35,188 nt of DNA. Origin: an uncultured Clostridia bacterium (GTDB lineage Bacteria; Bacillota; Clostridia; Christensenellales; Aristaeellaceae). The stretch covers positions 1 to 35,188 of the forward strand of contig CAMKEI010000022.1 of assembly GCA_946411525.1 (NCBI GenBank). The letters run 5' to 3'. Made by a program: the position numbers and the translations under genes. This document shows positions 8,418 to 27,366 of this stretch, one piece after another. Every line of letters begins with the position of its first letter. The stretch's first letter is position 1. The notes beneath the pieces are model-generated. The model searched no databases. It worked only from the letters and a program-made list of their open reading frames with translations, and was not told the origin of the DNA.

Positions 8418-8966
8418 TTACAGTCTGAACGTATCCCGGATCCTTTTCGCCGCGTCCTCCGCCGATAGGTTGCTGTTGTCGATTCTCAGATAGTTGTCAA
8501 AGGGGATCTCTCCCTCATAGCTGACCAGGCGGTAGGCATCCTCGCCCTTCAGTCGCGCGTTGGAGGCTTCCACGTCCGCCTTGGATGGCTTGTTCGCGAT
8601 CCGGTTCGCGGTCGCGTTCCGGACCAGGCGGATCTCCTGCGGCGCCACTAGCTCCACATAATAGAACTCCGTTCCGTACGGGATGAAGATTTCCTTCACG
8701 TGCTCGATATAATCCCAGTCTGCCTGCTGGTCGAAGGCCCACATATAGGTGAAAATCATCCCGGGCAAATCTGACGCGGCAAACTCCCGGAAGATGATCT
8801 CCCGGATCTCATTGACGACCTTCCCGTTATAATTCCCGAAAACCGCGATAACCGGCTCGATGGTCATGTGGTTGTGGAACAGTCTCAGGCCGGTCAGCTT
8901 CATCAGTTCCTGCCCCACGGTCATCTTGCCGACAGCGCCGCTGCCGATGATAAATACCAGTTTCAT
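8418..8966 (-). CDS. P-loop NTPase/kinase-like protein of unknown substrate
   Basis: A 182-residue protein that starts with a nucleotide-binding loop, FIIGSGAVGKMTVGQEL (about residues 5-21), resembling shikimate or adenylate kinase-like enzymes. The usual Ser/Thr after the loop Lys is Met here, followed by Thr (GKMT). I recall this GKMTVGQ form from related small proteins, so it may be normal for the family. LFHNHMTIEP follows, and LVAPQEIRLVRNATANR may serve as the lid arginine region. It is probably a phosphotransferase for a small molecule. ATG 8966 is preceded by AGGAGGAGAC. An in-frame extension to 9017 exists but runs into the terminator of the neighbouring small gene. Confidence 0.75.
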   Translation of the reverse strand: MKLVFIIGSGAVGKMTVGQELMKLTGLRLFHNHMTIEPVIAVFGNYNGKVVNEIREIIFREFAASDLPGMIFTYMWAFDQQADWDYIEHVKEIFIPYGTEFYYVELVAPQEIRLVRNATANRIANKPSKADVEASNARLKGEDAYRLVSYEGEIPFDNYLRIDNSNLSAEDAAKRIRDTFRL

Positions 8967-9000: not shown

Positions 9001-9039
9001 AAAAAACGACCGCCCATCCTGCAGGGGATAAGCGATCGT
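9001..9039 (-). terminator. intrinsic terminator of small peptide gene, copy 1
   Basis: A stem of about 14 bp (ACGATCGC/GCGGTCGT extended by TTATCC/GGATGG, with a few G-U pairs) is followed on the minus strand by TTTTTT. It lies 30 nt after the small ORF stop and 40 nt before the P-loop gene. Confidence 0.85.
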
Positions 9040-9068
9040 CAGATACTGTGCGCGTTTTCCGGAATCTG

Positions 9069-9161
9069 CTATTCCCTGTCTTTCGGATGGCTGTACGTGA
9101 AAGAATGGCCGTGGCGGATTGTCCCGGTCATCATCATGGCGGTCATGGTGCGCAGTGCCAT
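9069..9161 (-). CDS. 30-residue Met-rich peptide, copy 1 of a duplicated family
   Basis: A short ORF with AAAGGAG 8 nt before its ATG. The product begins MALRTMTAMMMT and ends HGHSFTYSHPKDRE. It has five Met and three His, no Cys, and no clear membrane segment. It aligns with a second ORF at 27212-27304: Met at positions 1, 6 and 9, then an MM pair, and a shared GxxFTYxHPK near the end. The homology continues outside the ORF, in the promoter, the 5' leader and the segment before the terminator. The unit is thus a conserved gene of about 185 nt transcript length, not a chance ORF. It sits just after the DtxR-family gene. I recognise no family; it could be a peptide, a leader or a dual-function RNA. 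Confidence 0.65.
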   Translation of the reverse strand: MALRTMTAMMMTGTIRHGHSFTYSHPKDRE

Positions 9162-9193
9162 CTGAAAAACTCCTTTCCGGAAAGATTGGGGTG

Positions 9194-9222
9194 AGTATAC
9201 TCCGCGGAACAGCTTCCGTCAA
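9194..9222 (-). promoter_or_regulatory. promoter of small peptide gene, copy 1
   Basis: Minus strand TTGACG (9222-9217), 17 bp, TATACT (9199-9194). It begins 7 bp beyond the end of the DtxR-family gene. The same -35, spacing and -10 recur at 27338-27366. The leader that follows contains CTTTCCGGAAAG, a perfect self-complementary 12-mer whose right arm overlaps the Shine-Dalgarno. Confidence 0.8.
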
Positions 9223-9229
9223 GGGTAAA

Positions 9230-9589
9230 TCATCTGATCTGTCCGCAGATCGCGTTGAAGGATTCTTCGGAAAGGTCATGCTCGATCTTGCAGGCGTCCT
9301 CCCGGGCAATCTCTTCCGGAACGCCCAGCTGAATCAGGTATTTCGTCAGCGCCTGGTGGCGGTCATAGATCTTCCGGGCAATCGCGTAACCCTTGTCCGT
9401 CAGGGAGATCAGGTTGTCCGTGCTCATTTTGATATACCCGTTCTCCTTCAGCTTCTTCATGGCCACGCTCACGGAGGGCTTGGAAACGTTCAGCCCCATG
9501 GCAATGTCCACGGAGCGGGCGTGTCCCTTCTGCTCCAGCAGCATCAGGATCTGCTCCAGGTAATCTTCGCCTGATTCATAGATATTCAT
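9230..9589 (-). CDS. DtxR/MntR-family metal-dependent transcriptional repressor
   Basis: A 119-residue regulator with an N-terminal winged helix (HARSVDIAMGLNVSKPSVSV, about 23-42) and a metal-binding dimerisation domain. It has no C-terminal SH3-like domain, as in MntR. Candidate primary-site ligands are D9, E12, H78, C100, E103 and H104 (motif DACKIEHDLS). D9 is as in MntR, while Cys100 matches the DtxR/IdeR site (MntR has Glu), so the site is a hybrid and metal choice (Fe or Mn) cannot be read off. When metal-bound, such proteins repress uptake genes. An operator lies just downstream of its own -10 (autoregulation), and related boxes precede the ABC, ZIP, ZinT-like and feo genes. The start has GAAAGGAG upstream. 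Confidence 0.93.
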   Translation of the reverse strand: MNIYESGEDYLEQILMLLEQKGHARSVDIAMGLNVSKPSVSVAMKKLKENGYIKMSTDNLISLTDKGYAIARKIYDRHQALTKYLIQLGVPEEIAREDACKIEHDLSEESFNAICGQIR

Positions 9590-26066: not shown

Positions 26067-27119
26067 CTATGCTTCTGTCAGGGGCATCTCCATGTATCTT
26101 CTGTAGGTTGTAAACCCGGCCGCTTCATAGAAGGCCAGGGCGCCCCGGTTGAACGCCCACATGTTCAGCTCCAGCCGGCTGAATCCCTGTTCCTTCGCCC
26201 AATCCCGGATGAAGCGGATCATTTCACTGGCGACGCCCTTCCGCCGGCAGTTTTCGTCCACGCCGAACTCGTCGATATCCAGGTAATCCCGCTCAAACAT
26301 GAAAGGATTCTCCGGACGGTTGATATGGTTCAGCACCGCGAATCCGCAGATCTCTCCCTCCTGCTCCGCCACGGCGATCTCCTTCTGCGGGTCTTCCCAA
26401 ATCACATGGACATAATCCCGCAGCTCATCGCAGAATCCGGGCTTGAAGATTTCGGGTTCCCCGGCGACGTGCAGGTCGTTCACCTGCTTGCGCAGTTCGT
26501 TAACCCGGTCCAGTTCGTCTTCCCGGGCAAATCTAACCGTCACCGGCGCCGTGTTCCGGGCTGGCTTCGGCGTCCGGTCACTCCTGAGCGCCGCATGCCA
26601 GACCTCGTCGCAGATCCCGAGGTTGTTCTTCCCGGCGCCGCGGAAGATTCCCTCCTGCTTCATCCCGGCCTTCTCCATGACCCTTCCAGACTTGGGGTTG
26701 TTCACGTCGTGGCAGGCAGCGATCCGGCTGACGCCCACGGTGTCAAACAGATAGTCCATCACGGCCCGCAGGGCTTCCGGCATGATGCCCCGGCCCCAGA
26801 ATGCCCGGCTCATGCAGTAACCCATGTCCGCCGCTTCCGTCTGCTCGTTCAGCTTCACGACCGCGATGTTTCCGATTACGCTGCCGGTCTCCTTCCACTC
26901 GATGGCCCACTGGAAAAAGCCGCCGTCATCATAACGGGAGATCCAGCTGTTCAGCACCATGCGGGTCACGTCGACGTTCGGATGGGTCGGCCAGGTCAGG
27001 AAACGGGTCACTTCCGGATCCGACGCCCAGTTGTTGAACATATCCTCCGCGTCTTCTAGGGTAAACCGTCTCAGGATCAGCCTGTGGGTTTCGATGCGCT
27101 GTGTTCCGGTCTTGTTCAT
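26067..27119 (-). CDS. tandem GNAT acetyltransferase (RimJ/L-like plus second GNAT)
   Basis: A 350-residue protein. Residues about 1-175 are a RimJ/RimL-type acetyltransferase (IETHRLILRRFTLEDAEDMF, MSRAFWGRGIMPEALRAVM, NPKSGRVMEKAGMKQEGIFR). Residues about 190-350 form a second GNAT domain (VDENCRRKGVASEMIRFIRD, LNMWAFNRGALAFYEAAGF). RimJ/L enzymes acetylate ribosomal protein N-termini; family members also act on drugs. ATG 27119 has AAAGGA about 11 nt upstream; a GTG three codons earlier is too close to that site. The small peptide cassette lies immediately upstream but is separated by a strong terminator. Confidence 0.88.
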   Translation of the reverse strand: MNKTGTQRIETHRLILRRFTLEDAEDMFNNWASDPEVTRFLTWPTHPNVDVTRMVLNSWISRYDDGGFFQWAIEWKETGSVIGNIAVVKLNEQTEAADMGYCMSRAFWGRGIMPEALRAVMDYLFDTVGVSRIAACHDVNNPKSGRVMEKAGMKQEGIFRGAGKNNLGICDEVWHAALRSDRTPKPARNTAPVTVRFAREDELDRVNELRKQVNDLHVAGEPEIFKPGFCDELRDYVHVIWEDPQKEIAVAEQEGEICGFAVLNHINRPENPFMFERDYLDIDEFGVDENCRRKGVASEMIRFIRDWAKEQGFSRLELNMWAFNRGALAFYEAAGFTTYRRYMEMPLTEA

Positions 27120-27145: not shown

Positions 27146-27183
27146 AAAAACGATCACCGGTCCGTCGAGCGGTCGGTGATCGT
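27146..27183 (-). terminator. intrinsic terminator of small peptide gene, copy 2
   Basis: Minus strand CGATCACCG paired with CGGTGATCG with further inner pairing, then TTTTTATTTT. It corresponds in position to the terminator at 9001-9039; both are entered by GACGATC. Confidence 0.88.
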
Positions 27184-27211
27184 CTGATGGCTTGGTTTGT
27201 CCGGACGTTCT

Positions 27212-27304
27212 TCAGCTCTTCGGATGGCGGTACGTGAAACGATAACCGTAAGCATAACCGGCTTCGGCCATCATGTTCATGGAATACATCACGTACGTTG
27301 CCAT
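27212..27304 (-). CDS. 30-residue Met/Tyr-rich peptide, copy 2 of a duplicated family
   Basis: A short ORF with GGAAAGGGAG upstream of its ATG. The product begins MATYVMYSMNMM and ends YGYRFTYRHPKS. It has five Met and five Tyr, no Cys, and no signal peptide. Compared with the ORF at 9069-9161 it keeps Met 1, 6 and 9, the MM pair, GxxFTYxHPK and the total length, while the Gly/Ala/Tyr centre differs. The promoter, leader and distance to the terminator are also conserved. It lies between the MerR gene and the double-GNAT gene. Confidence 0.65.
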   Translation of the reverse strand: MATYVMYSMNMMAEAGYAYGYRFTYRHPKS

Positions 27305-27337
27305 GGGAAGCGCTCCCTTTCCAGAAAGATTGGTGTG

Positions 27338-27366
27338 AGTATACTCCGGAAAGCAGGCTTCGTCAA
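27338..27366 (-). promoter_or_regulatory. promoter of small peptide gene, copy 2
   Basis: Minus strand TTGACG (27366-27361), 17 bp, TATACT (27343-27338). After it the leader matches copy 1 almost base for base down to the Shine-Dalgarno (TCACACCAATCTTTCTGG against TCACCCCAATCTTTCCGG). Confidence 0.82.

Follow-up and report, generated by a model that had tools for sequence, protein, structure and literature searches.

A family of short leader units ahead of diverse enzyme genes in one Clostridia genus: probable ribosome-controlled transcription attenuators

Two homologous units of about 220 bp were analysed in a 35,188-nucleotide stretch of DNA from an uncultured Clostridia bacterium (the whole stretch is called the window here), together with their relatives in other genomes. 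Judged from sequence and from RNA folding models, each unit is probably the leader of the gene that follows it and would act as a ribosome-controlled transcription attenuator of the ermK, vmlR and cplR kind. The features computed for the units were their anatomy, their family, their place ahead of genes, two competing helices, and the keeping of a reading frame. The family carries the case for attenuation; unit 1 by itself supports it weakly, and we lowered our confidence slightly for this reason. In attenuator terms, a box at the start of the leader ORF (box A) would serve as region 1, a box at its end (box B) as region 2, and the two terminator arms as regions 3 and 4.

Both units had been put forward in the original prediction, and all of their parts could be located: a promoter, a Shine-Dalgarno sequence ahead of each 30-codon ORF, and a terminator. 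Absent from that description were the strand (minus for both units) and the enzyme-like genes beginning 38 nt past the terminator of unit 1 and 28 nt past that of unit 2. Unit 1 opens with a sigma-70-type promoter (9194..9222; TTGACG at 9222-9217, a 17-nt spacer, TATACT at 9199-9194). Its box A (9156..9171) covers the end of the Shine-Dalgarno region, the spacer and the start codon (ATG, 9161-9159) of leader ORF 1 (9069..9161, 30 codons plus TAG), for which homologues were found. Box B (9077..9092) consists of the SHPKD codons and is complementary both to box A and to the region of the intrinsic terminator (9005..9040, stem 9040-9005). The predicted box A:box B duplex amounts to -19.0 kcal/mol, and the segment 9034-9005 alternatively pairs with the B region in a predicted duplex of -26.3 kcal/mol. 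The promoter of unit 2 is of the same type (27338..27366; TTGACG at 27366-27361, TATACT at 27343-27338) and is followed by box A in the start region (27299..27315), leader ORF 2 (27212..27304, 30 codons plus TGA), and box B (27213..27229), which comprises the HPKS codons and the beginning of the stop codon. Here the start region pairs with the HPKS codons (predicted duplex -16.8 kcal/mol), and box B is also complementary to the loop and 3' arm of an intrinsic terminator at about 27148..27185, which came from a separate hairpin search and is absent from the terminator scan list. No second minus-strand promoter match was found in the 500-bp stretches scanned at either unit.

An alignment of the two units spans their whole length, promoter and terminator included, and is closest over the FTYxHPK codons, the promoter and the 5' leader. 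The leader peptides, MALRTMTAMMMTGTIRHGHSFTYSHPKDRE and MATYVMYSMNMMAEAGYAYGYRFTYRHPKS, are 43% identical, and the shared features first proposed for them (M1, M6, M9, an MM pair and GxxFTYxHPK) are indeed common to both. This likeness is not due to chance, since a DNA pattern for FTYxHPK allowing up to two mismatches matched twice in the window against 0.06 expected, and the leader part matched with an E value of 7.4e-8 in a whole-genome search. The NCBIfam model 'salivaricin M' was considered for peptide 1 and taken as a chance match (E 0.13, far below the cut-off). A gene for a short MntR/DtxR-like regulator of 119 aa lies on the same strand at 9230-9589 of the window, with 7 nt between its end and the -35 box of unit 1; a functional link between the two was rejected on the evidence of the downstream genes, because the unit recurs before many other genes.

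Related genomes had been suggested as the place to look for further homologues, and these proved numerous. A two-row profile search returned five, all in the same genus, at E < 0.001. At E <= 0.1, a promoter-to-ATG model built from seven units (R1) matched 33 of the genus's 45 genomes. Its 59 best-listed places (57 fetched and the two in the window) formed the first set; leader ORF and terminator were both present in 55 of them, and 54 were kept after L121, L125, L132 and L140 (without leader ORF or terminator, or at a contig end) and L142 (ORF continuing through the terminator) had been dropped. The leader ORF of L136 was set by hand. A refined model from 38 units (R2) matched 38 of the 45 genomes at E <= 0.01, with up to eight matches per genome, which were partly checked. 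The second set was made of 34 of the 35 places not yet fetched, down to E 2.4e-4 (G009:C2:151801, E 1.7e-4, was left out); 29 of these were units, and L196, L207, L215, L217 and L219 were dropped, giving 83 analysed units in total. An alignment of 38 units shows strong conservation of the promoter hexamers and the 5' leader, with the Shine-Dalgarno sequence and start codon among the conserved parts, and the R1 and R2 models themselves contain promoter, Shine-Dalgarno sequence and ATG. All 83 kept units have a predicted hairpin and T run, units without a terminator having been dropped.

The expectation of many copies in the genome comes down to four places in the source genome, namely the two in the window and one each on contigs C35 and C24. 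A pattern search of this genome gave, besides the two copies, seven matches with two mismatches, which is not above control. Nearly all family matches fall in one genus. An order-wide sample yielded matches at E <= 0.001 in 14 of 396 genomes, six of them belonging to the genus, and no clear family member was found outside it in the seven of eight genomes inspected (L175-L179, L181 and L182; L183 and another match, L083, were left out). One of these places, L177, lies in another family of the order; read by eye, a short ORF there resembles a leader, has many Tyr, Ala and Cys codons, and is followed by a hairpin, a T run and a gene whose product begins MII. It is perhaps an unrelated amino-acid attenuator. 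An exact leader pattern had no match in viral contigs, and 17 of the 19 genome-contig records that it matched, on the pattern alone, are titled Clostridia, Clostridiales or Eubacteriales, several of them from goat, sheep or buffalo gut. Two exact-pattern matches, L161 and L163, were rejected as family members and look like chance Shine-Dalgarno matches.

That the family was undescribed held for the libraries searched: there was no Rfam match (window at gathering threshold, unit 1 region at E up to 1, 16 loci at gathering threshold), and no description of this leader family was found in the open-licence literature. In genome G008, the orthologue of the gene at 8418-8966 is preceded by a divergent Met/His-rich leader and terminator (L260) with a weak leader-model score; because of this weak score, the census is probably a lower bound. 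In subfamily 3, the first terminator of L143, L113 and L126 is followed by a further stretch that has a Shine-Dalgarno-like sequence of its own. In L143 this stretch also holds, read by eye, a second leader-like ORF ahead of the downstream gene, which gives the appearance of a tandem pair of leaders.

The position of the units was examined next to the genes that follow. In 63 of the 83 units, the terminator is followed within 60 nt by the start of an ORF of at least about 70 aa, the gap to the start codon being 17-55 nt; in the other 20, the called gene is farther away (13 units) or there is none within 250 nt (seven units). Unit 1 is followed by a minus-strand gene (8418..8966) for a kinase-like protein of 182 aa with a P-loop recognised by eye. 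Four of its eight plasmid relatives are annotated as AAA family ATPase and one as shikimate kinase, and the protein gave no match in Pfam or PDB and none in NCBIfam at the cut-off. The gene behind unit 2 (26067..27119, minus strand) encodes a protein with two GNAT acetyltransferase domains. When 76 following proteins were grouped by Pfam scans of representatives and BLAST linkage, 32 fell into methyltransferase groups and 26 into GNAT/nitroreductase groups (58/76); in the subset within 60 nt, the counts were 29 and 23 (52/63). The other 18 of the 76 include the P-loop protein, 2'-5' RNA ligase-like, HAD, phosphorylase-family and hydrolase proteins, and unknowns; no scanned downstream protein (sets of 10 and two) reached an NCBIfam cut-off. 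The unit comes and goes ahead of orthologous genes: a complete unit stands directly in front of the double-GNAT gene in five of 22 full-length orthologues. At another such gene, in G006, a script recognised a promoter and a terminator without a leader ORF (L245, the same place as L140), possibly a decayed unit.

The unit had originally been read as an independent gene, and part of that reading stands: there is a real family with a promoter, an apparently translated ORF and a terminator. Taken as a small gene for a functional peptide (a Met/His metal binder, a toxin-like peptide or a signal), it would have its neighbour by coincidence, and the 20 units with no called gene within 60 nt fit this, as does the complete promoter-ORF-terminator arrangement; the 63 units that directly precede another gene do not. 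The downstream genes likewise bear on an attenuator of the trp/his type, whose leader ribosome would stall when a single amino acid runs short. Its leader ORF and terminator anatomy is the same as that seen here, and some leaders are Met-rich, but no single-codon run common to the subfamilies was seen by eye and the Pfam scans of neighbours revealed no gene of amino-acid biosynthesis, which leaves this type the least probable of the readings considered.

Pairing between the two ends of the leader ORF was examined across the family. The ORF end (B) is complementary to a stretch (A) from the Shine-Dalgarno sequence to just past the start codon, and alternatively pairs with the 5' half and loop of the terminator (T), the partner in unit 2 being the loop and 3' arm as described above. 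Other subfamilies have an ORF end of AGAGAAGAG or GAAGAGCTCC with a matching start region, and leaders with unlike C-termini (REE, SSGV) keep pairing of the A:B type. In 32 representatives at 70% identity, A:B pairing averaged -17.3 kcal/mol with own partners vs -13.3 with swapped ones, and B:T pairing -21.0 vs -17.3. None of 20,000 permutations reached the observed mean for either helix at either clustering level (the relatedness of the units remains in this control), and the swap test was likewise positive with 44 and 30 representatives at 80%. The own partner beat the row median in 25 of 32 cases for A:B and in 25 of 32 for B:T, leaving seven representatives that were not better in each case; its median rank is 5 to 7 rather than 1 because subfamilies share boxes.

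A control with synonymous codons, in which the peptide was held fixed, gave a similar picture. For 27 of 30 leaders, the real ORF end was the better partner of the 12 nt before the ATG (mean z -1.45), and for 24 of the 30 the real sequence gave the stronger whole hairpin (mean z -0.99). Pairing of the ORF end thus exceeds what a peptide would need, which argues against a peptide gene at the level of the family, but not strongly in the case of the two window units: for unit 1 alone, 23 of 200 synonymous versions paired as well and 26 folded as well, and for unit 2 alone, 45 of 200 paired as well and none folded as well. In one subfamily of 18 hand-chosen rows, with the tested structure taken from the first row and relatedness again remaining in the control, B:T was 95.5% paired vs 36-56% when slid, and A:B with the inner hairpin was 85.7% paired vs 34-47%. 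Double-sided changes in A:B were few in this subfamily and not above shuffles (148 of 500 as high), and RNAalifold on 21 rows recovered no A:B helix, its prediction being limited to the inner hairpin and the terminator. On average, then, the family has mutually exclusive pairings, one of which opposes the terminator; subfamily 3 is not explained by the same B:T pairing, and unit 1 alone is weak.

Competing helices would also suit a riboswitch or another ligand-sensing RNA, in which a metabolite controls the terminator and the ORF is incidental, and the RNA of unit 1 folds better than shuffled sequences (z -2.85; 3 of 200 shuffles as good). Against this stand the lack of an Rfam match, the conserved Shine-Dalgarno sequence and start codon, downstream genes without one common pathway, and a reading frame held against length changes. 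We regard such an RNA as highly improbable, by a shade less so than the trp/his type.

The frame was the feature that bears on translation. Across the family, the leader ORF is 27-39 codons long, and the distance from the ATG to the pairing box shifts in triplets, with one phase in 55 of 56 boxes (19/19, 28/29 and 8/8 by subfamily, over several lengths), the boxes for this test having been picked by eye. Two looser box patterns showed mixed phases (36/19 and 45/9/1), because those patterns lump different motifs. Alternative frames are open in 2 of 83 units (+1) and 20 of 83 (+2); the leader frame itself is open in 83 of 83 because open ORFs were required. Since the boxes keep one phase to the ATG, the leader ORF is probably translated.

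Constraint on the peptide was weaker. The comparison of nonsynonymous and synonymous change that had been proposed as a check gave pN 0.096 and pS 0.197 in 60 non-independent pairs above 80% identity; this pN/pS of about 0.49 points to weak constraint on the peptide among close pairs. In 39 aligned leaders, M1 is the sole invariant residue and the mean column identity is 27%. The kept phase and a pN/pS below 1 would be expected of a peptide gene, yet this poor conservation across the family would not, and with the units' place ahead of genes and the pairing of the ORF end it makes an independent peptide gene unlikely, though somewhat less so than a riboswitch. What is kept in the leader ORF is probably frame and pairing more than peptide, and the FTYxHPK codons are, as read from their complementarity, largely an RNA pairing arm. 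The suggested metal-binding, toxin-like or signalling function is accordingly not supported, as the C-terminal codons would serve largely for pairing and the peptide drifts; a metal peptide was rejected also because Met and His are not kept by eye beyond the first subfamily. The proposal of a dual-function sRNA came close in one respect, in that termination would yield a short, structured RNA made up of the leader.

The attenuator reading was then considered in a folding model in which a ribosome masked a set position of the leader and the RNA was made up to the 3' arm of the terminator. At least five expected B:T pairs were obtained in 13 of 32 representatives without a ribosome and in 25 of 32 with a ribosome on the start codon. 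The number was 21 of 32 with the ribosome at codon 5, 14 of 32 at codons 10 and 15, and 0 of 32 at the ORF end, the last being a consequence of the mask itself. Unit 2 rose from 2.6 to 8.9 B:T pairs once the start codon was masked; unit 1 had 8.8 pairs without a ribosome vs 9.4 with one and so lacked such a rise. Seven of the 32 stayed below five pairs despite a ribosome on the start codon, including members of subfamily 3 (L113, L117 and L126). At full-length equilibrium, the terminator was favoured in every state (mean probability 0.91-0.97), so that the switch would be a kinetic one.

The attenuator would work as follows. The promoter would produce a leader RNA, as its sequence suggests, and ribosomes would translate the leader ORF of 27-39 codons, as the conserved frame suggests. 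Box B would be covered by a ribosome that reaches the stop codon, and would be paired with A if no ribosome has loaded; either way the terminator would form and keep the gene off. A ribosome held at or near the start codon would instead cover A and leave B free. Free B could then pair with the 5' part of the terminator before RNA polymerase has finished its synthesis, and this B:T pairing would permit readthrough into the methyltransferase, acetyltransferase or kinase-like gene. Production of the enzyme would probably be confined to times of disturbed protein synthesis. By analogy with vmlR and cplR, we give about even weight to translation stress as the trigger, most simply antibiotics that hold initiating ribosomes. 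A K-x-R motif near the C-terminus, of the kind at which macrolides stall ribosomes, was considered as the on signal; it is unlikely in this role because box B would lie under a ribosome stalled at that point and the terminator would be kept.

Attenuation of this class is known. The leaders of ermK, which codes for a methylase, and of mef/mel(msr) confer control of macrolide resistance through transcription attenuation (PMC5418344). They resemble the present units in having a short translated leader ORF, an intrinsic terminator before the gene and an alternative antiterminator. The likeness is one of anatomy; here one homologous leader is common to many different genes, and the two ends of the leader ORF pair together, unlike in ermK and mef/mel(msr). 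For the leaders of vmlR in Bacillus subtilis and cplR in Clostridioides difficile, the ribosome is reported to be probably stalled at the start codon (PMC12121999), and both genes code for resistance ABC proteins. A ribosome on the start codon would likewise be the on signal here, in the folding model. Unlike in those two systems, no resistance ABC protein was recognised among the scanned neighbours of the present units. The proteins encoded by vmlR and cplR are of the ABC-F type. Several classes of antibiotic induce through toiL, the uORF of E. coli topAI, according to PMC12121999. Pairing along the uORF lets ribosomes stalled at various places act as a switch, in which toiL resembles the present leaders. 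The output differs: toiL works through Rho and masks the downstream gene's ribosome-binding site, and the present leaders would act on an intrinsic terminator.

What is unusual in this family is the pairing of both ends of one leader ORF and the occurrence of one homologous leader before many different genes. To our knowledge, leader attenuators have usually been described gene by gene. We suggest tentatively, with somewhat less than even confidence, that the attenuator has been copied to positions ahead of several enzyme genes unrelated to one another, with gains and losses among orthologues. In a genus of gut Clostridia, the units would then form a cis-acting translation-stress regulon without a regulator protein, whose targets may include undescribed methyltransferases, acetyltransferases and kinases that modify the ribosome or drugs. 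A caution also follows: what looks like a 'conserved small protein', complete with promoter and terminator, can be a by-product of RNA pairing in a translated leader. A dispersed and recognisable leader family of this kind would reveal stress-induced enzymes of uncultured gut bacteria from sequence alone.
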